Shown here piece after piece: positions 490 to 14,412 of a stretch of 20,317 bases of DNA. Within the stretch, counting starts at the first letter, position 1. Each line of letters opens with the position of its first letter. Both the position numbers and the translations under genes were made by a program. The notes under the pieces are model-generated. The model did no database searches. It was not told where the DNA came from and was given only the letters and a program-made list of their open reading frames with translations. Source of the DNA: a virus; IMG/VR virus record IMGVR_UViG_3300010885_014058, positions 1-20,317 of that record; one strand, 5' to 3'.

Positions 490-1917
490 TTGAAAGATGA
501 CAACCTAGAGATGTGGGCATCCATATCTAACACACTACCTCAAACTCCCACACCACCAAACACGCTGCCATTACCTGAAATCCTAAAGGTAATGCAGTTC
601 TGTGCTAATGACAAGGTCGAGCAATACGATATTACTATCAAACTGCTTGATATGATATCCACACTTAGGTCTGATATTGAGTTTCTAAACTGGAAATCAA
701 TGGTTGAGTATGACTGTAAGAAATACCTCCGCTCATTTGAAACATCAGAACAAATACTTAAATCTGCCAGAAATCACAACACATTATTTAATGCTGGCCG
801 TGCTGCATACAAAGCCAACAAACTAGAACATTCAGAGAAATATCTCAAAGAGGCTATGTCACTTGACCCAACCGATAGTTCCACCATATTAGATTATGCG
901 GTTACTGTCTGTACAATGGGACACTTTGACCAAGCTCTCGATATCATCAATAATATAGACAAGACCAAACTCGATACACTTCATGGTAAGATAGTTGACT
1001 TTAACAAAGGTTGGCATACTATCCGTAAAGGTGACTTCAAGAAAGGTATGGACTTACTCCATATTGGCCGTGAAATTGGCATGCTTGGTAACCATACCAA
1101 GGTATTTAATAGACCGCAATGGGATGGATATTCATATCCACACAAAACTATACATATCGTAGGTGAAGCAGGTATTGGTGATGAAGTTATCAATGCTAGG
1201 TTTTCTAAGATTATCAAAGACCGTGGAATGGATTGCGTTATGTCCACTGTACATAATAACACATCTATGCTTAGTTCTGTTAAGGACTTGGATGATGTGT
1301 TTAACTCAAGTGAGGCCGATAGTAAATCTTGGGATTATTGGGTACCCGCTATGGACCTGCCATATATATTAGGGCTTGAGGCAAATGATATACCTTCTGA
1401 ACCCTACATTTTGGCCAAACCAGAGTTTATTGCCAAGTGGAAAGATAAAATACAGACCAACAAGAAGTTAAAAGTCGGTATTCGTTGGATGGGTAATCCA
1501 CTATACGAATTAGAATTAGCTAGAACTATACCAATTGAACTGTTTGAACAACTGGCCGAATATGATATTCAAATGTATTCATTTCAAAAGGATGACGGCC
1601 TCAAAGACTTAAAAATACCGAGTGGTGTGATAGATATTGCAAAAGATTTAGAGTCGTGGGATGATACTATGGGTGCCATGGAGAACATGGACCTGATGAT
1701 AACTTCGTGTACTTCTGTACCTCATGTTGCTGGCGCCTTAGGTATTCCTACTTGGATTATAGTGCCTTTGTTACCATATTATACTTGGGCTGATATGAAG
1801 AAAGAATCTTACTGGTACGATTCAGTAAGTCTATATAGACAGAAGGTTTGGAAAGAATGGAATGAACCTTTTGAAGAAGTAAAAACTGACTTGAAAAAAT
1901 TATTGGAGATGAAATGA
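490..1917 (+). CDS. TPR domain + GT9-like glycosyltransferase
   Basis: This 475-residue protein has an N-terminal helical part with TPR-like repeats (about residues 95-195; AGRAAYKANKLEHSEKYLKEA and TMGHFDQALDI are typical helices). Its C-terminal half resembles the GT9/heptosyltransferase-type GT-B fold found in phage TPR-glycosyltransferases: GEAGIGDEV near 225-233, VGIRWMGNP at 329-337, YSFQK at 363-367 and the nucleotide-sugar-binding stretch TSCTSVPHVAGALGIPTW near 405-422. Its likely role is sugar transfer from a nucleotide sugar to a protein or glycan, with the TPRs binding the acceptor. The start is TTG, chosen because GGAG at 478-481 lies 8 bases upstream and the frame has no better ATG. 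It is the first gene after the consensus promoter, and its TGA overlaps the next ATG. The domain order is secure; donor and acceptor are unknown. Confidence 0.8.
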   Translation: MKDDNLEMWASISNTLPQTPTPPNTLPLPEILKVMQFCANDKVEQYDITIKLLDMISTLRSDIEFLNWKSMVEYDCKKYLRSFETSEQILKSARNHNTLFNAGRAAYKANKLEHSEKYLKEAMSLDPTDSSTILDYAVTVCTMGHFDQALDIINNIDKTKLDTLHGKIVDFNKGWHTIRKGDFKKGMDLLHIGREIGMLGNHTKVFNRPQWDGYSYPHKTIHIVGEAGIGDEVINARFSKIIKDRGMDCVMSTVHNNTSMLSSVKDLDDVFNSSEADSKSWDYWVPAMDLPYILGLEANDIPSEPYILAKPEFIAKWKDKIQTNKKLKVGIRWMGNPLYELELARTIPIELFEQLAEYDIQMYSFQKDDGLKDLKIPSGVIDIAKDLESWDDTMGAMENMDLMITSCTSVPHVAGALGIPTWIIVPLLPYYTWADMKKESYWYDSVSLYRQKVWKEWNEPFEEVKTDLKKLLEMK

Positions 1918-2771
1918 TATTCCCCGTAGAAGTATGTGGTGAGAAGTTTAAAATTCAAGTGCATGATGAAGATGAATGTGTGTCTAATATTATCAGAGAA
2001 AAGACAATATATTCTATCACTGATTTGAAACAATTTAATAAATTCTTAAGTAAAGGTGATTATTTTGTAGATGCCGGAGCAAATATTGGATGGCACACAT
2101 TGTTTGGTGCCGAAGTTGTGGGTGAAACCGGTAAGGTATTTGCCTTTGAACCTGGCACTAAGAACTTTGATTTATTAGAAATCAATATTAAATTAAACAA
2201 CCTGCAAAATGTTGAAGCAATCAAGTCTGCACTAACTGATTATGTTGGTAAGGCAGAATTAACTTGTTCTACTAAAAATTACGGTGACAATGTAACCATA
2301 CCTCTAACTAAAGATGATGTTGAGGTTAAGCTTCAAAATTGGTATGAAGATAAAATGTTATATTTGCCTGGCGATAAAGAGTCTATTGATTGTACAACGC
2401 TTGATGATTACATCTCAACTAATAATATTGACTCAAGTAAGATTAAATTAATTAAAATGGATATTCAAGGTTCAGAACCTAAGGCTCTTGATGGTATGGA
2501 GAAATTAATTAGAGACCACCATCCGGCAATTATCTTAGAATATTCACCTCATCATATTAAGATTTGTGATTCATCTCCATTTGAGATATTATCATTTATT
2601 GACAAATATGATTATGTACCTTATCACATTAGGGAAGATAGAGAAATACCCGATGATATGATATTATATAATACATCGGTTATTGATATTATTAATGCCA
2701 CACAGGATATATTTTCTAGTGGAATATCCAATGGATTTGACTTATTATTGGTACATAAAGGTCATCCTTAA
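1914..2771 (+). CDS. FkbM-family SAM-dependent methyltransferase
   Basis: This is a 285-residue class I methyltransferase. Motif I is FVDAGANIGWHT (51-62), followed by the acidic strand FAFEPG (76-81) that contacts the SAM ribose. The family signature KMDIQGSEPKAL lies at 181-192; the D-x-(Q/E)-G-x-E pattern is diagnostic for FkbM proteins. FkbM enzymes typically O-methylate sugars or small-molecule hydroxyls, and in phage and bacterial surface-glycan loci they sit beside glycosyltransferases, as here. The start ATG overlaps the upstream TGA (ATGA), and GGAG at 1905-1908 serves as ribosome site, so translation is probably coupled. A sugar O-methyltransferase role is the likeliest; the substrate cannot be read from the sequence. 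Confidence 0.85.
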   Translation: MIFPVEVCGEKFKIQVHDEDECVSNIIREKTIYSITDLKQFNKFLSKGDYFVDAGANIGWHTLFGAEVVGETGKVFAFEPGTKNFDLLEINIKLNNLQNVEAIKSALTDYVGKAELTCSTKNYGDNVTIPLTKDDVEVKLQNWYEDKMLYLPGDKESIDCTTLDDYISTNNIDSSKIKLIKMDIQGSEPKALDGMEKLIRDHHPAIILEYSPHHIKICDSSPFEILSFIDKYDYVPYHIREDREIPDDMILYNTSVIDIINATQDIFSSGISNGFDLLLVHKGHP

Positions 2772-2773
2772 TA

Positions 2774-3529
2774 ATGAAAATTGCAATTGCATTACGAACT
2801 TGCGGTAACGTATTCAATTATTGGAATAATAATGAAAGGATAGTTGATGCTGACAAGGCAACAATTATCCTTACATGCCTGAATAGTTTACTAAAGGCTA
2901 TTAAGTCTAGCGGGCATGAGGTAATATTCAGCATACACGATGATAGTTCTTCTGATGAGTTATTATCTCATATTGGAGAAGTATGTGGTATGCATAATGT
3001 ATCCGGCGAATTAATTAATTCAGGTAAATTGGGCAACTTTATCACGCAGTATGAATGGTTGAAAAAACAAGATTGTGATTATGTATATTGCATTGAGGAT
3101 GATTATCTTCATAGGGATTCTGCATTATTTGAAATGATGGAGATGATAGATTATTTAAAATCTATGAATCCTGGTGAGTATGCTATACATCCATTTAATT
3201 GTCCTCATAGATATGCAGGATTTCAATCATTATATCCATCATATATAATAAAAGGACCTAATCAATATTGGCGGTCTAATTTTCATAGTACACATTCATT
3301 CTTTATATCCAAAAATATGTTTACACAGTATGATGATATTATGAAAGAACAAGCCTATACATGGGCCACTAATGCCGCAGTAGAAGATTCAACAATAAAC
3401 AAGGTATGGAAAGAGCAAAAAGTGATGATGTTTACCCCTTTGAAATCTTTAGTATACCATATAGCAGACAAAACACAAGAAGATACATTTGATAATTGGC
3501 AACAACTTTGGACTGAGAATTTAATATGA
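2774..3529 (+). CDS. Probable GT-A-type glycosyltransferase
   Basis: This 251-residue protein has features of a GT-A nucleotide-sugar transferase: an N-terminal strand-loop (KIAIALRTCGN), an acidic stretch SIHDDSSSDE (53-62) similar to the GT2 'DDgSsD' signature, and a candidate metal-binding CIEDDYL (106-112) where a DxD motif is expected. The remainder is rich in aromatic residues and matches no common domain I can name. It starts 2 bases after the FkbM stop, and its final TGA overlaps the ATG of the small endonuclease relic. Family-level assignment is moderate; it could also be a divergent glycosyltransferase outside GT2. Confidence 0.6.
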   Translation: MKIAIALRTCGNVFNYWNNNERIVDADKATIILTCLNSLLKAIKSSGHEVIFSIHDDSSSDELLSHIGEVCGMHNVSGELINSGKLGNFITQYEWLKKQDCDYVYCIEDDYLHRDSALFEMMEMIDYLKSMNPGEYAIHPFNCPHRYAGFQSLYPSYIIKGPNQYWRSNFHSTHSFFISKNMFTQYDDIMKEQAYTWATNAAVEDSTINKVWKEQKVMMFTPLKSLVYHIADKTQEDTFDNWQQLWTENLI

Positions 3530-3771
3530 AAGCAAAAGGTTTAAGATTTGTATATGATGACTTGAAAGATGGGATTCAAAAATCTTTATATAATGGAGTA
3601 TTTTGGGAAGAAAAAGAACATAGAAATAAAATATCAAAGAGAATGGAAGGTAATAAGTACGCATTGGGTAGTATTCGAAAACTTGTAGTTTGCCCTTATT
3701 GTAATAAAGAAGGAGCAAATGGAGCAATGCAAAGATGGCACTTTAATAATTGTAAGGCAAAAAATGACTAA
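3526..3771 (+). CDS. Small zinc-finger protein, likely remnant C-terminal domain of a homing endonuclease
   Basis: This is an 81-residue lysine-rich protein. Its middle (EHRNKISKRMEGNKYALG, about residues 27-44) resembles NUMOD-type DNA-binding motifs. Its end, CPYCNKEGANGAMQRWHFNNC (56-76), is a Cys-x2-Cys...His-x3-Cys zinc-finger motif that recurs at the C-terminus of phage HNH and GIY-YIG homing endonucleases. No nuclease domain is present, so it is either a decayed endonuclease or a free-standing DNA-binding protein. It overlaps both neighbours by a few bases (ATG over the upstream TGA; TAA within the next ATGACTAA), so the frame is kept intact and probably translated. It is the only non-enzymatic frame in the cassette. 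Confidence 0.65.
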   Translation: MKAKGLRFVYDDLKDGIQKSLYNGVFWEEKEHRNKISKRMEGNKYALGSIRKLVVCPYCNKEGANGAMQRWHFNNCKAKND

Positions 3772-4618
3772 ACTAATAACTGCATGTTATACTATACTAA
3801 AAAATGAGAAGAAGTACATCGAGAAATGGTTGTATTACGCTGCGCCATTTGATTATCGTGTATTACTTGATACCGGTTCTACTGATGGTTCTTGGGAACT
3901 ACTCCAAGAGTATGCCAAGAAAGACCCCAATCTAATCATTGAACAAAAGACATTTACTCCGTGGCGATTTGATACCGCTCGTAAGTATAACATGACTATG
4001 ATACCTGAGGATGTTGTCTGGTGCCTGTCTCCTGACTTGGACGAATACTTTTCTATCAACACTCATGATGAAATGGAAAAGATTATTTCTTCCGTTCCAA
4101 CTATCACTAATATTGGCTGTGATAGACTTGATATATATTCTAGGACAGTCCGAGTGGGGCCTCCTAATTTCATTCCAACGAATAAGATACACCTCAAGAA
4201 TGACTATACTTGGAATCAACCTATCTATGAACACCTAAGTTGGATACACAAAGATAGACCTGAAAATGAATTATACTCTGAAGATATCTTTTTAGTACAT
4301 GACCAAGACTTTCAAAAAGAAGAAAGGTCTGAATTGTACATTAAAATGTTGGAAGATGAATATTCAACTAACCCAACAAATACTTGGACTTTATGGTATC
4401 TGTTATATCATTATCAAAAATCATTGCAAATGGAAAAATACATTAAAGCAGGTTGCGATTTTATTAGGTTTGAATCAAACAAACAAGGCGACTGGTACAA
4501 ATATGTATCCGCTGAACTAACTAATATTTACCAAAATGCTCCTATCTCTCAACTTCAAAAAGATGATATTAATTCTGTAATTACTTTTAATAATCCTTGG
4601 TCTGCTTGGAAAAAATAA
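3764..4618 (+). CDS. Family 2-like glycosyltransferase
   Basis: This 284-residue GT2-type enzyme has an N-terminal strand TACYTILKNEKKYIEKWL, the UDP-sugar signature LLDTGSTDGSWE (34-45), FDTARKYN (69-76) and the candidate metal-binding SPDLDEYF (89-96). This set is typical of GT2 proteins that act on glycan chains and that recur in T4-like phages of aquatic bacteria. I chose ATG 3764 over the upstream ATG at 3719 because the alignment-like start (TKLITACYT) follows directly and the longer version would read through the zinc-finger gene. It overlaps the upstream gene by 8 bases, and its stop TAA shares a base with the next ATG. Donor sugar and acceptor are unknown. Confidence 0.8.
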   Translation: MTKLITACYTILKNEKKYIEKWLYYAAPFDYRVLLDTGSTDGSWELLQEYAKKDPNLIIEQKTFTPWRFDTARKYNMTMIPEDVVWCLSPDLDEYFSINTHDEMEKIISSVPTITNIGCDRLDIYSRTVRVGPPNFIPTNKIHLKNDYTWNQPIYEHLSWIHKDRPENELYSEDIFLVHDQDFQKEERSELYIKMLEDEYSTNPTNTWTLWYLLYHYQKSLQMEKYIKAGCDFIRFESNKQGDWYKYVSAELTNIYQNAPISQLQKDDINSVITFNNPWSAWKK

Positions 4619-5403
4619 TGCAAACAATACACTTTTTATCAGGTTTACCAAGGTCAGGTTCTACTGTACTAGCTTCTATATTAAATCAAAATCCGGATGT
4701 ATATGTTACACCTACTAGTCCTATGTTAAATGTAGCCGTCAAGATGCAAGAAGCTTGGCGAGAAGACCCAACCGTTAAAGCCAATTACTTTGAAGAGCAA
4801 GCTCGTAATCTTACTAAAGCTATCTTGCCCGCTTTTTGGCATCATAGGCCTGAACGTATTATTATTGATAAAGGTCGTGGTTGGGCTAAGAACATGCCGA
4901 CAGTCAATGCCTTGTTTGGTCAAAGACTTAAAGTGGTGGTTGTTGAACGAGACCTTCCGAGTATTATGGCAAGTTGGTTGACTATTATTAAAAATCAAAC
5001 CAATCCTCAATTTGATATTAGTCTAAGACAAAAAGGAATGTTATCCACGGATGAAAATCGAATGGGTGAAATGTGGTTTAATATGGTCAAAGATTGTATG
5101 GAAGGTACTCAGCAAATTAAACGTGATGTTCCTGACCAAATAATAATAGTCAAATATGATGACATTGTAAACAATCCTCAGCATGAGATTGCAAAAATTG
5201 AAAAGTTTTTATTATTACCAAAACACGAGTATGATTTGAATAATATCCAAAGTGATACTACTGATGATGATATGTTAGCATGGGGATTTGAGGGTCTTCA
5301 TACTATCAGACCTAAGTTAGAAAAGACCTGTAAGAATCCAAAAGACATATTGGGTGATATGTTATATAACAGATTTGTAGAGATAGAGAAACAATATAAA
5401 TGA
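4618..5403 (+). CDS. PAPS-dependent sulfotransferase
   Basis: This 261-residue protein opens with the 5'-phosphosulfate-binding loop LSGLPRSGSTVLASIL (7-22); PRSGST is the sulfotransferase P-loop-like signature. The matching 3'-phosphate-binding region is VVVVERDLPSIMASW (106-120), where R111 and a following serine occupy the usual positions. Such enzymes move sulfate from PAPS to a hydroxyl or amine of a sugar, lipid or tyrosine. The next gene looks like an APS kinase, the enzyme that makes PAPS, so the two may form a donor-plus-transferase pair. ATG 4618 is used (overlapping the upstream TAA by one base) because the motif starts a few residues later; a TTG seven codons upstream is unlikely. 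The acceptor is probably the glycan built by the flanking glycosyltransferases, which is inference. Confidence 0.85.
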   Translation: MQTIHFLSGLPRSGSTVLASILNQNPDVYVTPTSPMLNVAVKMQEAWREDPTVKANYFEEQARNLTKAILPAFWHHRPERIIIDKGRGWAKNMPTVNALFGQRLKVVVVERDLPSIMASWLTIIKNQTNPQFDISLRQKGMLSTDENRMGEMWFNMVKDCMEGTQQIKRDVPDQIIIVKYDDIVNNPQHEIAKIEKFLLLPKHEYDLNNIQSDTTDDDMLAWGFEGLHTIRPKLEKTCKNPKDILGDMLYNRFVEIEKQYK

Positions 5404-5792
5404 AAATTTTAATCATGGGATTATCTGGTTCAGGTAAAACTACTTTAGCAGAACAAATATACAATAGGCGATTCTCAATTTGGTTAAATGCCGACAGAAT
5501 TAGAAAATCTTATAATGATTGGGACTTCTCATATGAAGGTCGAATTAAACAAGCTTATCGTATATGGCAGTTGTCTGAAGTTTGTGATGAAGAATTTATT
5601 ATTATCGATATGATTGCTCCGTTGGAAGAAATGCGTGATATTATTGATGCTGATTACACTATATGGATGAACACAGTACAATCTTCTCAATATATGGACA
5701 CAGATGCCATATTTGAACCAGCCATTGCGGCTGATTTGATTCTGACTAATTTTGAATATGACATCAATGATATAGTAAGGAAATTAAGATGA
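5400..5792 (+). CDS. Short APS-kinase-like P-loop kinase
   Basis: This 130-residue protein has the Walker A loop GLSGSGKTT (7-15), then LNADRIRKSYNDWDFS (29-44), which mirrors the APS-binding LDGDNVR...LGFS region of CysC, and IDMIAPLEEMR (69-79), similar to the ISP..R motif. It is much shorter than CysC (about 175-200 residues). The lid and APS-contacting segment between the central strand and the C-terminal helix is compressed to WMNTVQSSQYMDTDAIFEP. Similar short versions occur in phages and are named adenylylsulfate kinase-like. The ATG overlaps the sulfotransferase stop (ATGA), so the two are translationally coupled. Supply of PAPS for the sulfotransferase is the attractive role; another small-molecule phosphotransfer is possible because of the missing lid. 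Confidence 0.7.
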   Translation: MKILIMGLSGSGKTTLAEQIYNRRFSIWLNADRIRKSYNDWDFSYEGRIKQAYRIWQLSEVCDEEFIIIDMIAPLEEMRDIIDADYTIWMNTVQSSQYMDTDAIFEPAIAADLILTNFEYDINDIVRKLR

Positions 5793-6361
5793 AAGGCGAA
5801 TGGTGTTTCTTTCCAAGTCATTTTACGCCAGAAGAATGTGCTAAAATCTTAAAGTTAGGTCTCAAATTACCATCACAAGAAGCAACTATGGGTGTTGATG
5901 GTGCAGTTAAGATATCAGAATTTCGCAGAAGTAAAATTCGTTTTATTCTTCAGTCGGATCCAAATTTCACTTGGTTATTCGATGCTATGTGGAAGATGGC
6001 AATTACGGCCAATGACGAATGGTTCAAATTTCATATCACCAGAATCTCATATATACAATTAGCAGAATATGATGAGTCTTATCAAGGTGAATATAAAAAG
6101 CATAATGACATCTTTTGGATAAATGGTGACCCCGAGTACCACCGTAAACTTACAGCTGTAGTTCAATTAACAGACCCATCAACCTATGAAGGTGGGAATT
6201 TAGAATTATTTGGCTTGACTGAATATCCAATTGCCTCTGAGGTCAGAAAACAAGGCACGGCCTTTTTCTTTCCCTCTTTCTTGGAACACCAAGCAACGAT
6301 GGTCACCAAAGGTACTCGATATTCGTTAGCATGTTGGTTTGAAGGAAACAAATGGAGATAG
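5789..6361 (+). CDS. 2OG-Fe(II) dioxygenase (prolyl-hydroxylase/PiuC-like)
   Basis: This 190-residue single-domain oxygenase carries the iron triad: H105-x-D107 in KKHNDIFW and the distal H167 in FLEHQATMV, with R177 (GTRYSLACWF) as the 2-oxoglutarate-binding arginine. The double-stranded beta-helix context between them (LTAVVQLTDPSTYEGGNLEL) is typical of the phage 2OG oxygenases that are widespread in T4-like phages of aquatic bacteria. It would hydroxylate a protein or sugar. It overlaps the APS-kinase-like gene by 4 bases (ATGA). It probably supplies a hydroxyl or further decoration in the same cassette, but a role on tail protein prolines is equally open. Confidence 0.85.
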   Translation: MKGEWCFFPSHFTPEECAKILKLGLKLPSQEATMGVDGAVKISEFRRSKIRFILQSDPNFTWLFDAMWKMAITANDEWFKFHITRISYIQLAEYDESYQGEYKKHNDIFWINGDPEYHRKLTAVVQLTDPSTYEGGNLELFGLTEYPIASEVRKQGTAFFFPSFLEHQATMVTKGTRYSLACWFEGNKWR

Positions 6362-6362
6362 T

Positions 6363-6926
6363 ATGGAACATAATGATTTAGAATTTGAAATGGATTTCTG
6401 GGGCGATTGCACTAATACTTTTGGTGAAGACCAGAAGCATTATATTTATGGCAACTTAATGGGATTGACAGGTAGTTATTTCTCCTTTGATGCGCAAGAT
6501 AAAAGAATACTAGACATTGGTGGTGGACCAACCTCAATGTTATTAAAAACATACAAACTGATAGAAGGTAAAGTATGTGATCCTATTGATTATCCGCAAT
6601 GGACCAAAGATAGATACGCAATTAAAAATATATCAGTTCAGGTTGTCGGGGGCGAAGACATAGTTGAATCTGGTTGGGACGAAGTGTGGATTTATAATGT
6701 AATGCAACACTCGGAAGATCCAGAGAAGATTATAGATAATGCCAAGAAGTCTGCTAAAGTATTACGCATCTTTGAGTGGATTGATATTCCTGCACATGAA
6801 GGACACCCACATATGCTTACTCAATCAAACTTAGAGAAGTGGATTGGACAAAAAGGTAATGTCACAGAATTAACAGGTGAAAATGGTTGCTATGGCAAAT
6901 GTTTTTATGGAACTTTTGAACTATGA
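6363..6926 (+). CDS. Small SAM-dependent methyltransferase-like protein
   Basis: This is a 187-residue protein with a clear motif I, RILDIGGGPTSMLL (48-61), an acidic strand II (KVCDPIDYP), and a motif IV-like WIYNVMQHSEDPEKIIDNA that resembles class I methyltransferases of the methyltransf_11/25 type. Start ATG 6363 is preferred over the in-frame TTG 6339 because GGAG at 6354-6357 lies 5 bases before it. It sits between the 2OG oxygenase and the GT4 gene, whose ATG overlaps its stop. The substrate is unknown; a sugar intermediate is plausible given the neighbours. A small enzyme like this could also modify proteins. Confidence 0.75.
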   Translation: MEHNDLEFEMDFWGDCTNTFGEDQKHYIYGNLMGLTGSYFSFDAQDKRILDIGGGPTSMLLKTYKLIEGKVCDPIDYPQWTKDRYAIKNISVQVVGGEDIVESGWDEVWIYNVMQHSEDPEKIIDNAKKSAKVLRIFEWIDIPAHEGHPHMLTQSNLEKWIGQKGNVTELTGENGCYGKCFYGTFEL

Positions 6927-8071
6927 AGTTTCACGTTCTTTCCGTGCCTCACACAGTATCATCTACTGAATTTACATCTTGCGCTTTTACTCAAAAGGTA
7001 GTTAAGTTTTGTGAAATGATGCACGCTCGTGGCCATGAGATTATACATTATGGTCATGAAGATTCAGTTATTGATTGTACAGAACATGTATCCGTCTTGA
7101 CCAATGAAGATTGGAAAATTGCTTATGGTGATTATGATTGGAAAAAGACATTCTTTAAATATGATGTTAATGACCACGCATACTTAACGTATTACAAAAA
7201 TACGATTGAAGAGATTGGCAAAAGAAAACAACCTAAAGATTTCATTTTGGCTTTTTGGGGCAATCCAATGAAAGTAATCTGTGATGCTCATCCTGATTTA
7301 ATAAGTGTTGAACCAGGAATTGGTTATTCTTTTGGTCATTTTGCCCCGTATAAAGTGTTTGAATCTTATGTGGCACATTCGGCTTATTATAATTTAGATT
7401 CCTTGACCTATTGTAATGAGAAGTGGTATGATGTTGTTATTCCTAATTATTTTAAATTAGAAGATTTTGAATATACAGAAAAGAAAGATGATTACTTCTT
7501 ATACATTGGCCGGGTATATAATGGTAAAGGTGTTGATATTGCCATTGATGTTACTGGTAGAATTGGTGCCAAGTTAATTATTGCAGGCCAAGGTTCACTC
7601 AAAGAAATGGGATATAAAGAAGTTCCAAGTCATGTGACCGAATTTGGATTTGCTGGTGTTGAAGACCGCAAGAAACTAATGTCTAAGGCCAAAGGCTTAT
7701 TTGCGCCTTCTTTGTATAATGAACCATTCTGTGGAACACATGTTGAAGCCATGTTATCAGGTACTCCTGTAATCACTACTGACTGGGGTGCTTTTATTGA
7801 ATATAACTTACACGGGGTAACAGGATATCGATGTCGAACATTTGAACATTTTATGTGGGCTGCTAGAAATATCGATAAGATTGACCCTAAAGATTGTTAT
7901 GAGTGGGCATCCAAAAACTTTTCTTATAATAAAGTTGGCAAGATGTACGAAGAATATTTTAGTTCCATATTGAATATTTATGGAAAAGATGGGTGGTATG
8001 AGCTTAATGATTCTCGTACCGAACTGGATTGGTTGAAAAAAGAATATCCACAAGGCATAAATAAAGCATAA
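6923..8071 (+). CDS. Family 4 glycosyltransferase (GT-B)
   Basis: This 382-residue GT-B enzyme has an N-terminal acceptor domain (about 1-185). The C-terminal nucleotide-sugar domain shows YFLYIGRVYNGKGVDIAID (191-209), LIIAGQGS (218-225), APSLYNEPFCGTHVEAML (261-278) with the E-x7-E motif of retaining GT4 enzymes, and GTPVITTDWGAFIE (280-293). It closes the cassette; its 3' end also carries the NATAAATA late-promoter motif of gp13, so late transcription begins inside this gene. The first residues (FHVLSVPHT) match phage GT4 proteins seen in other aquatic T4-like phages. The enzyme class is secure; donor and acceptor are not known. Confidence 0.85.
   Translation: MKFHVLSVPHTVSSTEFTSCAFTQKVVKFCEMMHARGHEIIHYGHEDSVIDCTEHVSVLTNEDWKIAYGDYDWKKTFFKYDVNDHAYLTYYKNTIEEIGKRKQPKDFILAFWGNPMKVICDAHPDLISVEPGIGYSFGHFAPYKVFESYVAHSAYYNLDSLTYCNEKWYDVVIPNYFKLEDFEYTEKKDDYFLYIGRVYNGKGVDIAIDVTGRIGAKLIIAGQGSLKEMGYKEVPSHVTEFGFAGVEDRKKLMSKAKGLFAPSLYNEPFCGTHVEAMLSGTPVITTDWGAFIEYNLHGVTGYRCRTFEHFMWAARNIDKIDPKDCYEWASKNFSYNKVGKMYEEYFSSILNIYGKDGWYELNDSRTELDWLKKEYPQGINKA
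8056..8063 (+). promoter_or_regulatory. T4-type late promoter (CATAAATA) for gp13
   Basis: CATAAATA lies 28 bases before the gp13 ATG, inside the end of the GT4 gene. It fits the NATAAATA late-promoter pattern (T4 consensus TATAAATA) recognised by gp55-type sigma with gp33 and the sliding clamp. Three other copies precede structural genes in this window. Confidence 0.6.
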
Positions 8072-8091: not shown

Positions 8092-8865
8092 ATGGCCAAT
8101 ATAACAAACAGACAAGGGTTTAAGGATTATTGCTTACGCCGTCTAGGTTTCCCTGTTATCGACATCAATGTAGATGACGACCAAGTGAATGACCGTGTGG
8201 ATGATGCGTTACAATATTGGCAAGATTACCATTACGATGGTATGCAAAAGACCTATTATATCCATAAATTGTCACAGGACGAAATTGATAAACGTGTTTG
8301 TGATATGTCCAATGTTTACGACAATTCAAATAATGCTGTTGAAGTCGTTGGTGTAACTCGTGTATTTCCAATCTCAGATTCAATTGCATCAGTCGGTATG
8401 TTTGACTTGCGATATCAACTTAGACTAAATGAGTTGTATGATTTTACTTCAGCCTCATATATCAACTACACTTTAACCATGCAACACTTACGCTCACTAG
8501 AGATTATGTTTACTGGTGAAGTTCCTATTCGTTTCCAAAGACACACCAAGCGACTATATGTTGACTGGAGATGGGACCAAGCTGCTGTTAGAAATGGTTC
8601 TATTGTTATTATCGAATGTTATACATCTTTAAGTCCAGATGCGTATGCTGATATATGGAATGACCGTTGGTTAAAAGAATATTGTACAGCTCTTATTAAA
8701 AGAAATTGGGGCTCAAATATGAAAAAATTCTCAGGCATGCAATTGCCAGGCGGTGTTATGGTAAATGGAGATAAAATTTTTCAAGAAGCGGAAGCAGAAA
8801 TCAAAGCACTAGAAGCTGAAATGGAATCTCGTTATGGGGGCGTGCTTGAATTTTTTCTGAATTAA
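8092..8865 (+). CDS. 13: gp13-like neck protein
   Basis: This 257-residue protein has the conserved N-terminus of marine T4-like gp13 (ITNRQGFKDYCLRRLGFPVIDINVDDDQVNDRVDDALQYWQDYHYDG). It also has the interior segment RFQRHTKRLYVDWRWDQAAVRNGSIVIIECYTSLSPD and an acidic C-terminus (EAEAEIKALEAEMESRYGG). gp13 caps the filled head with gp14 to form the neck to which the tail joins. Together with the following genes it fixes the T4 order 13-(HNH)-14-15. The ribosome site is weak (GGAT before ATG). The NATAAATA motif in the upstream gene should drive it late in infection. The next gene starts only 2 bases after its TAA. Confidence 0.9.
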   Translation: MANITNRQGFKDYCLRRLGFPVIDINVDDDQVNDRVDDALQYWQDYHYDGMQKTYYIHKLSQDEIDKRVCDMSNVYDNSNNAVEVVGVTRVFPISDSIASVGMFDLRYQLRLNELYDFTSASYINYTLTMQHLRSLEIMFTGEVPIRFQRHTKRLYVDWRWDQAAVRNGSIVIIECYTSLSPDAYADIWNDRWLKEYCTALIKRNWGSNMKKFSGMQLPGGVMVNGDKIFQEAEAEIKALEAEMESRYGGVLEFFLN

Positions 8866-8867
8866 TT

Positions 8868-9440
8868 ATGAAACATATACATCATATTATACCAAAACAT
8901 ATGGGTGGGTCAGATGACTCATCCAATTTAATAAAATTAACGGTAGCAGAACACGCTGAGGCTCATCGTATTCTTTTTGAACAACACGGCCAATGGCAGG
9001 ATAGAGTGGCTTGGAGAGCTTTAATTGGACATATAGGTAAGGAAGAAATTATTCATGAAATTCATAAGAATATGAATAAAGGTAGATTAGTGTCCGATGA
9101 AACCAGAGAAAAAATGGCTGCAGCAAAAAGAGGTAAATGTATTTCAGAGAAACACAAAAAAGCATTGAATGAAGGACGAAGAAATTCCAAAAATAGTCAA
9201 GAGCACAATGCCATATTAAGAAAAAGTGCCACTGGTAGAAAAATGTCAGCTGATTCAATAAAAAAATCTGTTGAATCCAGGAAAAAAAATAATGATACGG
9301 TAAAACTATCAAGTAATGCTGGTAAAATTAGTATGGAAAAATATAAAAATGATCCTGAAAGACAGAAAAGATTTTCTGAATCCATGAAAATTTCTTGGGC
9401 CAAAAGGCACCAATTAAAATTACAATTAGGAGTGGATTAA
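8868..9440 (+). CDS. HNH homing endonuclease inserted between gp13 and gp14
   Basis: This is a 190-residue protein with an N-terminal HNH/His-Me finger domain: HHIIPKHMGGSDDSSNLIKL (5-24) followed by EHAEAH (28-33). After it comes a lysine- and serine-rich chain (about 72-190) with NUMOD3-type DNA-binding motifs such as VSDETREKMAAAKRGK, ISEKHKKALNEGR and MSADSIKKSVESRK. It is a free-standing homing endonuclease, since gp13 and gp14 flank it as separate intact genes with no intron. No Shine-Dalgarno precedes its ATG, so it likely depends on translational coupling to gp13, 2 bases away. Its last codons contain the AGGAG that serves gp14. Base use (very A-rich) differs from gp13 and gp14, consistent with transfer. 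Confidence 0.9.
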   Translation: MKHIHHIIPKHMGGSDDSSNLIKLTVAEHAEAHRILFEQHGQWQDRVAWRALIGHIGKEEIIHEIHKNMNKGRLVSDETREKMAAAKRGKCISEKHKKALNEGRRNSKNSQEHNAILRKSATGRKMSADSIKKSVESRKKNNDTVKLSSNAGKISMEKYKNDPERQKRFSESMKISWAKRHQLKLQLGVD

Positions 9441-9444: not shown

Positions 9445-10323
9445 TCTACCTCACAATATTTTAACAACTATAATGCACTCAATGAGCAAAGACTATTTGA
9501 AGATTTGATTGTGGAGTCAATTAAGATTATGGGATTTGATGGATATTACCTGTCTAACGATAACGACCAAGCTCGTGATTTGTTGTATGGTGAAGACCCA
9601 TTAAAAACATTTACTTCAGCCTTTCCTATTGAAATGTACTTATCTTCGGCTATGGAACATACAGGCGAACGAGAATTCTTTTCCAAATTTGGCCTTGAAA
9701 TTAAAAACAATGTTTCCGTTATTCTTTCTAAACGAACATTTATGCAACGTGTGCCACAGAATAGATTTGATAGGCCCCGTGAAGGTGACTTGATTTATAT
9801 TCCAGTGACCAACCAAGGCGGTGAATTATTTGAGGTCAAGTTTGTTGACTCTAATAAAGACTTCTTTACATTAGGTCGTAAAATTCCGTATTTCTATGAA
9901 ATGCAACTTGAACGATTTAAATATTCAAATGAACGAATTGATACTGGTGTACCTGATATTGATATTGTCAATATTATGGATTCTTATACTATCAATCTTC
10001 AATTGGACAGAGGTGATTCAAATTATACACCAAATGAGGTTGTATTCCAAAGCGAAGATAACACATTTTCTAACTCTACAACCAGTGCGGTTGTTTCTAC
10101 TTGGGATTCTGTAGCAAAAACATTATCAGTTACTAACATCAAGGGTGAATTCCAAGTTGGTGCAAATGTGATTGGTAAAACTTCAGCTTCAAATATTATG
10201 TTAAATTCATTTGATCCATTAGATGTTACATTACCAGGTGAAGTTTATGATAATAGGGTTATTAAGTCTGAAGCAGACCAAATAATTGATTTCAGTGAAC
10301 AAAATCCTTTCGGAGAAATCTAA
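9442..10323 (+). CDS. 14: gp14-like neck protein, probable ATT start
   Basis: Read from ATT 9442 this is 293 residues beginning ISTSQYFNNYNALNEQRLFEDLIVESIKIMG, which matches the N-terminus usual in marine T4-like gp14. The body (GFDGYYLSND...LLYGEDPLKTFTSAFPIEMYLSSAMEHTGEREFFSKFGLEI and REGDLIYIPVTNQ) is also characteristic. gp14 joins gp13 on the head vertex and links the portal to the tail. The C-terminal part (about 10033-10200) contains a small beta-strand module also found in gp15, and the extreme C-terminus reads IIDFSEQNPFGEI. An ATT start is rare; the TTG at 9505 is the fallback if the ATT is not used. Its TAA overlaps the gp15 ATG by one base. Confidence 0.85.
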   Translation: MSTSQYFNNYNALNEQRLFEDLIVESIKIMGFDGYYLSNDNDQARDLLYGEDPLKTFTSAFPIEMYLSSAMEHTGEREFFSKFGLEIKNNVSVILSKRTFMQRVPQNRFDRPREGDLIYIPVTNQGGELFEVKFVDSNKDFFTLGRKIPYFYEMQLERFKYSNERIDTGVPDIDIVNIMDSYTINLQLDRGDSNYTPNEVVFQSEDNTFSNSTTSAVVSTWDSVAKTLSVTNIKGEFQVGANVIGKTSASNIMLNSFDPLDVTLPGEVYDNRVIKSEADQIIDFSEQNPFGEI

Positions 10324-11387
10324 TGGCCTATAATAAAATAATTAGAAAACTTGTGGTGGGATTTGGTAATCTTTTTGATGATATTACATTGGTGAGATAT
10401 AACCCCGATGGTTCAGAAGTTCAAAGACAAAAAGTTCCGTTAGCCTATGCTTCAAAAGAACGCTATGTTATGCGGCTACAAGGTGACCCAACTTTAAATA
10501 AAAAGGTTCAAATTTCTTTGCCTAGAATGTCATTTGATTTGACAGGAATGAACTATGACTCTTCTCGTAAACAAATAACGAATATTAAAAATTATGCACC
10601 TTCACGAAATGCTGATACAATCCTCTCACAATATAATCCTGTGCCTTATGATTTTGATTTTTCTTTATACATTTATGTAAGGAATATTGAAGACGGTACA
10701 CAAATTATTGAGCATATTTTACCCTATTTTACTCCTGATTATACAATTAGATTGAATCTTATTCCTGAAATGGGTATCGTTAAAGAAGTACCGGTTGTAT
10801 TAAAATCAACCAGCCAAGAAATTGATTATGAAGGAGATAGAGACCATGAAACAAGAACCATTATATGGACTTTAACTTTTACGGTCAAAGGATTTGTGTT
10901 TGGTGCTGTGTCTGAACCTAAGGTTATTAAAAAATCGATTACAAATATATATGATAATACTCTGTCAGATGGCGATACAGTTCAATTTGGTTTAGGTCCA
11001 GATGGATTAGGAAATTACAAAGAAGGTGAATTTGTATACCAAGGTTATAGTTTACAAAACTCAACAGCTTCGGCCAAAGTTTTGTCTTGGACGCCTTCTA
11101 CTTCTAAATTAGAATTAATAAATATTAGCGGTAATTTTGTGACCACATTTCCAATTTATGGAAGTCAAACAGGTGCAGTTTATTCATTTATGTCACATCA
11201 AGTATTACCACAACAATTAGTTAAGATTGTAGTAACACCTGATCCATTGAGTGCTAATTCTACTTCTGATTTCTTGTACCACGAAGTCATAACTGAATTT
11301 CCTTTTGCGGAAAATGAAGCTGGAAATTTTGATGCTGACGATGATTCTGTTGATACCTCCCATTTAACCATGGATGAAGATAATTAA
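10323..11387 (+). CDS. 15: gp15-like tail sheath stabiliser / tail completion protein
   Basis: This 354-residue protein has the gp15 N-terminus of marine T4-like phages (KIIRKLVVGFGNLFDDITLVRYN, ERYVMRLQGDPTLNKKVQISLPRMSFD) and DFDFSLYIYVRNIEDGTQIIEHILPYFTPDYTIRLNLIP, the region that packs in the hexameric ring closing the tail at the neck. T4 gp15 is 272 residues; the extra length includes a module (about 11022-11190; EGEFVYQG...ASAKVLSW...LELINISGNF) shared with gp14 and an acidic tail (NFDADDDSVDTSHLTMDEDN). The start overlaps the gp14 stop with GGAG upstream. The order 14-15 supports the call. Confidence 0.9.
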   Translation: MAYNKIIRKLVVGFGNLFDDITLVRYNPDGSEVQRQKVPLAYASKERYVMRLQGDPTLNKKVQISLPRMSFDLTGMNYDSSRKQITNIKNYAPSRNADTILSQYNPVPYDFDFSLYIYVRNIEDGTQIIEHILPYFTPDYTIRLNLIPEMGIVKEVPVVLKSTSQEIDYEGDRDHETRTIIWTLTFTVKGFVFGAVSEPKVIKKSITNIYDNTLSDGDTVQFGLGPDGLGNYKEGEFVYQGYSLQNSTASAKVLSWTPSTSKLELINISGNFVTTFPIYGSQTGAVYSFMSHQVLPQQLVKIVVTPDPLSANSTSDFLYHEVITEFPFAENEAGNFDADDDSVDTSHLTMDEDN

Positions 11388-12846: not shown

Positions 12847-14412
12847 ATGGCAACAAAAATTCAATTACGAAGAGATTTAGAAACAAATTGGGAAACAAGT
12901 AATCCAATTCTAAGTCAAGGTGAACCTGGTCTTGCCATGGACATCAATCGATATAAAATTGGTGATGGTGTAAAAACTTGGAACGATTTACCATATGATA
13001 ATAGTTCATTATCCGTGTTATCTGATGGTTCCAGATTTGGTCAATATACGGTATCAGGTGTAAAAGAGTTTACATTCACCACTCGTGGTCATCGTTGGAC
13101 AGAAGCGGTTGCAGTTGCTACTACTAGTGATGGTACATTCACTATCGATGCTGCCACTTATCCAGATGTTGCTGAAGCTTACCATTTATGGGATATTGGA
13201 AATAGTTTTGGTCTATGGTTTAATGGTGATTATGGTACTTCTTATGATGTAAGCAACATTACTATCAATGGAACTGTCTATACATTTACACTTAACTCTG
13301 CAACTCCAACCATTAATACTGGTGATAGAATCACTATTATGGCATGGACTCAAGGAACTAGAGCAACATGGGATAGTGTATATCTATCAGATGAGTGGAG
13401 AGCTTACCAACCTACTTCAAATACCAACACGGTACAAGTAGAAATTGGAACTAATAACACCCTCACGACTAAGCTTCTTGCTAATCCAACAAAATCATCA
13501 ATTATTTTTGATGATAAACCAGTTAATTGGTATAACAACAACTCTCAAAAGTTAGTAGACGATGCTAGAAAAATTAAATCTATAACTCAATTAAACGGAG
13601 ATTCAAATCTTTATGAAATTGCTTTTGATGGTCCTCCAACAACAATAAGAACAGATGATGATTCTTTTTCTATTACCGCTAATGCTTCTGTGTCCACAAC
13701 TGGTCTTTCATATGTTGCAATAAGCCGAACTCTTTATCCAGAATTAGCAGAATATGTATATTATTCTGGTGGTCAAATTACTGTAAACGCTGAAACAATA
13801 AACATTTCAAGTATTCCAGATGCCTATGGAAGTACATATGAATATCCAAACATTGGTTATTATGGTGACAATTGGTTGATTAATTTAAACAGTGCCGTTA
13901 CTACATGTGCAGCTGGAGATCCAATTACAATTACTTGGACAAAACCGGGAACCAACATTTTATTTGTTGCTCATGATCCAGGTAAATCACAAGGTGGTAA
14001 TTTTATTCAATGGTTTGATTGGAGAAAAGACCTTCCATTCTTTAAAGCATCAAGAACTAATGGTGTAACTTCTGGTCGTATTGACTGGACTGTGAAGATT
14101 GCTCGTCCGGTTGATAACACTGTCGACACACAAAGCAGTTTTAATCCTTCACAAAACTTTGGCTATGATGCTGTTGGCAATTATATTGGTGGCCCAACTA
14201 CCGTTTACTTTGATAATTACAATTATAATTATGACCGTTGGTTTGGTACAGCTCACAGTAATCAAGAAAATTCAAATTTATTTTGGTGGTATGGTCCAGA
14301 AGGCATCTTCTTTAAAGAATACTCATATGGTAATCGTTCACAAGATGTTAAAGTGAAAGTTGCTTACAAAATGGATCTATTCATTTCTGATAATGATGAG
14401 TATTGGGATTAA
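12847..14412 (+). CDS. Fibre/structural protein with Mtd-type N-terminal domain
   Basis: This is a 521-residue protein whose N-terminus (KIQLRRDLETNWETSNPILSQGEPGLAMDINRYKIGDGVKTWNDLPY, residues 4-50) matches the anchoring domain seen at the start of the Bordetella phage major tropism determinant and many tail fibres. The following region is beta-rich and aromatic (FGLWFNGDYGTSYD, TINGTVYTF, RITIMAWTQGT) with related segments near residues 70-175 and 265-370 (SYVAISRTLYPELAEYVYY ... GDPITITWTKPG), suggesting internal duplication. The C-terminus is rich in Tyr, Asn and Trp. The initiation sequence AGGAGATAAAAATGGCA is identical to that of gp18. It is likely a receptor-binding or surface protein; the ligand is unknown. 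Confidence 0.7.
   Translation: MATKIQLRRDLETNWETSNPILSQGEPGLAMDINRYKIGDGVKTWNDLPYDNSSLSVLSDGSRFGQYTVSGVKEFTFTTRGHRWTEAVAVATTSDGTFTIDAATYPDVAEAYHLWDIGNSFGLWFNGDYGTSYDVSNITINGTVYTFTLNSATPTINTGDRITIMAWTQGTRATWDSVYLSDEWRAYQPTSNTNTVQVEIGTNNTLTTKLLANPTKSSIIFDDKPVNWYNNNSQKLVDDARKIKSITQLNGDSNLYEIAFDGPPTTIRTDDDSFSITANASVSTTGLSYVAISRTLYPELAEYVYYSGGQITVNAETINISSIPDAYGSTYEYPNIGYYGDNWLINLNSAVTTCAAGDPITITWTKPGTNILFVAHDPGKSQGGNFIQWFDWRKDLPFFKASRTNGVTSGRIDWTVKIARPVDNTVDTQSSFNPSQNFGYDAVGNYIGGPTTVYFDNYNYNYDRWFGTAHSNQENSNLFWWYGPEGIFFKEYSYGNRSQDVKVKVAYKMDLFISDNDEYWD

Follow-up and report, generated by a model that had tools for sequence, protein, structure and literature searches.

A candidate glycosylation and sulfation cassette linked to an RCC1-repeat fibre gene in a T4-like virus

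The 20.3 kb stretch analysed here (the window; all 20,317 nucleotides of the uncultured virus record IMGVR_UViG_3300010885_014058) carries T4-like structural genes, including a large terminase whose closest match is found in Synechococcus phages (~55% identity), and raises the question of what nine enzyme genes packed into such a structural region accomplish together and on which acceptor. These genes, accompanied by one small homing-endonuclease remnant, occupy positions 490-8071 between an RCC1-repeat fibre end (3-428) and gp13 (8092), and specify, in this order, a tetratricopeptide repeat (TPR) glycosyltransferase (A), an FkbM methyltransferase (B), a GT-A glycosyltransferase (C), a GT2 glycosyltransferase (D), a sulfotransferase (E), an adenosine 5'-phosphosulfate (APS)-kinase-like protein (F), a 2-oxoglutarate (2OG) oxygenase (G), a methyltransferase (H) and a GT4 glycosyltransferase (I), with the island and its flanking genes all placed on the plus strand. 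We lean towards reading this island as a cassette for fibre-linked glycosylation and sulfation. An earlier reading made from the letters alone (the sequence-only reading) had described a nine-enzyme cassette for building and decorating a glycan; this observation is confirmed, each enzyme being an open frame at its assigned place and every family call correct, with slight revision of starts and overlaps, and the interpretation as a whole is partly supported. The flanks that it had named were likewise borne out, by a Pfam RCC1 match on the left and by gp13, gp14, gp15, terminase and sheath genes on the right.

Public viral contigs were scanned with the GT4 glycosyltransferase, the sulfotransferase, gp13, the TPR-glycosyltransferase A and the F family, yielding about 260 loci which were mapped by means of custom-built profiles. 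Dozens of independent contigs share these genes and their neighbourhood, so that the arrangement is more than chance, and the common theme consists of one or more RCC1 fibre genes followed by A, then by a variable mix of E, methyltransferases, C, D, B and F, and then by gp13. An RCC1 gene ends no more than 1 kb upstream of A for 102 of the 119 A genes with upstream sequence (56 of 69 after dereplication), while the checked exceptions are second A copies or A genes following another large fibre-like gene. Among 40 gp13-anchored loci picked regardless of A, five contain both RCC1 and A, none RCC1 alone, two A alone (being cut upstream) and 33 neither (Fisher p 3e-5, uncorrected for relatedness). 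Two contigs (L116 and L117) retain the order A-B-C-D-E-F, interrupted by two insertions, and in the cultured phage BUCT-ZZ01 (host Synechococcus PCC 7942, a laboratory strain) the RCC1 fibre gene is followed by an A-methyltransferase fusion. Such fusions are recurrent, E-A being present in 12 phage loci, A-E in two and A-methyltransferase in many, and no fewer than 14 phage proteins join E to A; because A, E and the methyltransferases are joined in these recurrent combinations, they are assigned to one pathway. The sequence-only reading had made its case depend on a conserved neighbourhood in relatives, and this is what was found, since the enzymes are found together, in an order that persists from one distant backbone to another, and fused to one another, instead of being scattered. 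A cyanophage host for these relatives was considered and set aside, psbA being absent in 20/20 relatives examined.

Comparison with individual relatives divides the island in two. The fibre and island genes of L116 are 71% (RCC1), 69% (A), 76% (B), 71% (C), 81% (D), 57% (E) and 51% (F) identical to those of the window, against 35% for gp13, 35% for gp14 and 42% for gp15 in the backbone, and the same pattern is displayed by L112 for RCC1, A, C and D, and by L013 for RCC1, D, E and F. Contig L003, on the other hand, closely resembles the window in gp13 (86%), gp15 (90%), G (87%) and I (71%), whereas identity falls to 45% for A and 26% for C. These identities therefore indicate that RCC1-A-F moves as a block between unrelated backbones, that G-(H)-I belongs to the resident backbone, and that the island joins two modules. 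One nine-gene unit is thereby rejected, and the single co-ordinated set of the sequence-only reading gives way to A-F travelling with the RCC1 fibre, G and I remaining with the backbone, and H coming and going.

Within the resident block, G (5789-6361; Pfam 2OG-FeII_Oxy_3, 2e-14) has the HxD...H metal triad (HND plus the distal H167), which is retained in near relatives, and may hydroxylate a protein rather than a sugar. H (6363-6926) is a class I methyltransferase (phrog_3603, 1.5e-85; in Pfam only a weak Methyltransf_23 match) which some relatives lack and which adjoins I in cyanophage ACG-2014f and contig L033. I (6923-8071; phrog_3408, 2.4e-151; Pfam GT4, 3e-17) is found next to fibre genes in Synechococcus phages ACG-2014f and S-CAM7.

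The first gene of the mobile block, A (490-1917), bears most directly on the identity of the acceptor. Its AlphaFold2 (AF2) model (mean pLDDT 83) divides into two halves, TPR (helical) and GT-B; the N-terminal half gives Pfam TPR matches, the C-terminal half gives no Pfam match, and the best Foldseek matches are SPINDLY (SPY), OGT and GT9 structures. A thus has the TPR-then-GT-B layout of a cytoplasmic protein O-glycosyltransferase of the OGT/SPINDLY/FlmG type, with no Pfam match to GT41 (PF13844), a family to which a true member in the bacterial locus L274 (see below) scores 1e-45. FlmG of Caulobacter has the same layout and binds flagellin through its TPR half, and so demonstrates that a TPR domain can bring a cytoplasmic glycosyltransferase to a fibre-forming protein (PMC7591256). 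No clear membrane helix is present in any of the nine island proteins (highest 19-residue hydropathy 1.62), which counts against synthesis of a lipid-linked host surface glycan, and the island contains no flippase or membrane-bound transferase, and so differs from a serotype-converting gtr cluster. It does have glycosyltransferase genes linked to virion fibre genes, as is expected of a virion glycosylation system. Considering that the fibre gene lies next door and that the island encodes no membrane protein, the adjacent fibre (C-terminal end at 3-428; Pfam RCC1, 1.2e-31; PHROG regulator of chromosome condensation, 1e-20), a predicted beta-propeller, would be the most economical acceptor, and it is the better candidate among those offered by the sequence-only reading, which had also named fibre-like proteins downstream and the host surface. 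The likeliest reading is that A, as a cytoplasmic glycosyltransferase of OGT/FlmG type, modifies this fibre, and that E then sulfates the glycan.

As regards sulfation, E (4618-5403) is a predicted 3'-phosphoadenosine 5'-phosphosulfate (PAPS)-dependent sulfotransferase which scores 66 bits (6e-18) against Pfam Sulfotransfer_3 (PF13469; cut-off 27), and whose PAPS-binding residues, being P11-R12-x-G14 of the PRSG loop (5'-phosphosulfate) and R111 and S119 (3'-phosphate), are invariant in 17 sequences; the sole notable NCBIfam match, NoeE, is limited to the PAPS loop. F (5400-5792) is a short protein scoring 29.2 bits (1.1e-6) against Pfam APS_kinase (gathering score 21.1), and APS kinases are the top Foldseek matches for a model of a fused relative (L061) rather than of F of the window. 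Since F scores 27.6 bits against the NCBIfam apsK equivalog, far from the cut-off of 138.7, and since its lid is shortened, it is named APS-kinase-like only. F is 33% identical over 91 aa to an APS kinase which adjoins cysDN and E in L274, a locus of an uncultured bacterium (JAUSIP010000006, 1966-13117) containing cysD, cysN, this short APS kinase, E, C, A, methyltransferases and GT41 enzymes. This gene set ties E and A to PAPS synthesis and supports PAPS-dependent sulfation, and L274 is a possible cellular source of the phage module. The sulfation step of the sequence-only reading is thus supported by the conserved residues of E and by a bacterial relative with complete PAPS-synthesis genes, while F as the PAPS-making kinase is plausible only.

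The fusion of an APS-kinase-like domain with a small NMN-adenylyltransferase-like domain constitutes a very common phage family (L192-L271; L061, 7611-8447), also present in Stenotrophomonas and Xanthomonas phages, and in three contigs (L234, L235 and L236) a fused F gene lies downstream of a tandem array of about eight RCC1-repeat genes. An interpretation of the fused protein as ATP sulfurylase plus APS kinase was rejected, the extra domain matching NMN adenylyltransferases and not ATP sulfurylase. Nor are families k10, k12, k23 and k38, encoded next to fused F in large phages, claimed as divergent sulfotransferases, the comparison of their profiles with E yielding nothing better than a short PAPS-loop match (k23).

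The promoters bear on the timing of expression of the island. A perfect sigma-70 promoter (TTGACA-N17-TATAAT, 12/12; 433-461), the sole such site in the window, opens the island ahead of A. In the 110 nt upstream of 85 dereplicated A genes, sites matching at 10/12 or more precede 23 genes, where 4.8 are expected from dinucleotide shuffles (shuffle maximum 11), and sites matching at 11/12 or more precede 10, where 0.47 are expected; the same shuffle test gave no excess upstream of gp13, gp14 or RCC1 genes. Of 104 dereplicated gp13 genes, 74 have instead the T4 late core ATAAATA in the 110 nt preceding them, where 8.4 would be expected, and in the window a T4-type late promoter motif, CATAAATA (8056-8063), is predicted to restart late transcription for gp13. 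These sequence matches, as distinct from measured transcripts, suggest that the island is under early-type control and gp13 under late control.

From the gene content, gene order, fusions, fibre linkage, backbone exchange and promoter type computed here, we infer the acceptor, the identity of the sugar, the order of steps, their timing and their purpose as follows. The TPR domain of A would hold the protein acceptor, for which the RCC1 beta-propeller fibre of the preceding gene is the likeliest candidate, while the GT-B domain of A would add the first sugar. The glycan would then be extended by C and D, O-methylated by the FkbM enzyme B (in relatives also by other methyltransferases), and sulfated by E with PAPS, to the supply of which F may contribute by phosphorylating APS. 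Host-type sigma-70 transcription would precede that of the late structural genes, so that enzymes and PAPS would be ready when the fibre protein appears. G, H and I, as a second block staying with the phage backbone, may modify a virion protein independently or add to the same glycan, and the resulting glycan, charged and methylated, would change receptor binding or act as a shield for the fibre. The fuller proposal, which we hold tentatively and with less confidence than the general assignment as a fibre-linked cassette, is that the beta-propeller receptor fibre of these phages bears a sulfated, methylated O-glycan of the phages' own making, and that the fibre gene passes together with the enzymes from one T4-like backbone to another, unrelated one, as a single mobile receptor-and-coat cassette driven by host-type promoters.

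Several observations weigh against a fibre-linked cassette of this kind. Foldseek TM-scores of A over the full length are low (0.33-0.39), and many A relatives are without most of the TPR domain, matching only from residue 133 or 171 on. A separate sulfotransferase is found nearby in 42 of 81 A islands, about half thus being without one. Sequence co-variation between RCC1 and A is weak (Mantel rho 0.20, p 0.07), and their co-evolution is accordingly not supported. The commonest relatives of F are those fused to the NMN-adenylyltransferase-like domain, some of which are encoded in large phage contigs, up to 383 kb in size, that gave no PF13469 (sulfotransferase) match above cut-off. Early-type control, finally, fits a change of the host surface at least as well. 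According to the latter explanation, which we regard as unlikely though far from negligible, early enzymes would alter the receptor glycan seen by the RCC1 fibre, thereby shutting the infected cell to further phages or keeping progeny from adhering to debris; the exchange of fibre and enzymes as one block would follow if receptor-binding and receptor-masking genes must be exchanged together. The sigma-70 sites, enriched before A and not before RCC1, gp13 or gp14, agree with this, as do the genes of lipopolysaccharide-heptose type in the islands of some relatives (HldE-like by Pfam). However, the island lacks a membrane protein, a flippase or a lipid-linked initiating transferase, and A resembles protein O-glycosyltransferases.

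If instead E were a protein sulfotransferase that modifies tyrosines or other fibre residues directly, with glycosylation being a separate matter, its best solved-structure matches, which are protein-tyrosine sulfotransferases (weak, E-value 1e-3), would be accounted for; but E is fused to the glycosyltransferase A in both orders, and we consider this improbable, even though a NoeE match spanning the PAPS loop alone means that the sequence does not decide. Even less credit is given to a gathering of independent morons, without a common pathway, at a permissive spot before gp13: gene content does differ from one relative to the next, and at this spot other gp13 neighbours have unrelated genes, but conserved order, recurrent fusions and tight fibre linkage argue to the contrary. 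A more serious contender, though still short of an even chance, concerns F alone, which may be a related nucleotide kinase (serving, for example, NAD salvage or a phosphoramidate-type donor), leaving the sulfotransferase to live on host PAPS; this is compatible with a fibre-linked cassette as far as the other genes are concerned. It is favoured by the match of the fused domain to NMN adenylyltransferases (PDB, 5e-6; NCBIfam), by fused F being encoded in large phage contigs without a sulfotransferase match and, in one Stenotrophomonas phage, beside NADAR, by the score of F far under the apsK cut-off, and by L003, which has F and no E. Nevertheless, the kinase domain best matches APS kinase by both Pfam and fold, E and F co-occur upstream of gp13 (both in 6 loci, E only in 2, F only in 3, neither in 69), and a short true APS kinase occupies the same place in L274.

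The fibre-linked cassette resembles several known systems in part. FlmG, the flagellin O-glycosyltransferase of Caulobacter (PMC7591256), is like A cytoplasmic, with an N-terminal acceptor-binding TPR domain and a C-terminal GT-B domain, and acts on a fibre-forming protein; unlike FlmG, A is a phage gene tied to RCC1 fibre genes, with a sulfotransferase and methyltransferases nearby and fused. Virion glycosylation in mycobacteriophages (Freeman et al. 2023, as cited in PMC12619734) also involves phage-encoded glycosyltransferases decorating virion proteins, yet in that case the glycans are reported to be on capsid and tail tube, whereas here a multi-enzyme block with sulfation is coupled to a receptor-type fibre, together with which it is exchanged. 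The cultured freshwater Synechococcus phage S-SRM01 (NC_070963) has RCC1 genes, the TPR protein A, a 2OG oxygenase, sulfotransferase E and a beta-1,4-glycosyltransferase in one stretch, but its A and E are only 27-34% identical, the F gene and the G-H-I block are missing from that stretch, and the record reports no function. ACG-2014f and S-CAM7 share the GT4 gene I and a 2OG oxygenase beside fibre genes, ACG-2014f also methyltransferase H; they have no sulfotransferase, A or F there, their 2OG enzymes are 25-28% identical, and they match only the right-hand part of the island. The bacterial L274, in which E, C, A and methyltransferases accompany cysD, cysN and a short APS kinase, differs in being a cellular contig that encodes an ATP sulfurylase of its own and GT41 enzymes.

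Phage genomes have repeatedly been noted to contain sulfotransferases, whose role is called unclear (PMC10580990), and literature searches combining phage, sulfotransferase, tail fiber and glycosyltransferase retrieved no description of a module of this kind. The linkage to a fibre provides phage sulfotransferases with a specific candidate acceptor, a donor pathway and partners, for which BUCT-ZZ01 and S-SRM01 are cultured test systems at hand. If the proposal is correct, sulfated glycans can occur on virions, and host range could be a matter of fibre chemistry besides sequence, a factor ignored by sequence-based host prediction.

The remaining genes of the mobile block are B (1914-2771; Pfam Methyltransf_21, 3e-19; phrog_8156, 3.5e-28; 76% identity in L116), C (2774-3529), which has a weak family match (Glycos_transf_2, 0.0071) and recurs in islands, and D (3764-4618; Pfam Glyco_tranf_2_4, 5.9e-7; phrog_13126 beta-1,4-glycosyltransferase, 3.5e-31). 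Between C and D lies a tenth frame, c, absent from the nine-gene description (3526-3771; 81 aa), which resembles the C-terminal zinc-finger end of phage homing endonucleases (phrog_655, 2.8e-4) and is probably a remnant; a relative of c follows C in L112. The likeliest starts are the ATG at 4618 for E, 3764 for D and 6363 for H. Of the ATGA-type overlaps attributed to the operon, five are true (A/B, C/c, E/F, F/G and H/I), the other junctions being TAATG at D/E, an 8-nt overlap at c/D and gaps of 1-2 nt at B/C and G/H.

Some relatives carry additional genes in or near such islands. Genes of ADP-heptose type, some on the opposite strand, are present in L024, L074 and L080 (HldE-like in L024 and L080, epimerase-like in all three), and a carbamoyltransferase gene near a sulfotransferase and FkbM in L212 (4339-6033) suggests further decorations in the same kind of island. 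To the right of the island, gp13 (8092-8865; head-tail adaptor; phrog_211, 2.6e-44) forms the boundary and is separated from gp14 by an HNH homing endonuclease gene (8868-9440), relatives of which occupy the same place in L032, L033, L050, L052, L053 and L083. Further downstream, gp14 and gp15 (9505-11387) appear to share a related C-terminal module, residues 242-293 of gp15 matching the gp14 family phrog_460, and positions 12847-14412 encode a fibre-like protein with an N-terminal major-tropism-determinant domain (Mtd_N).

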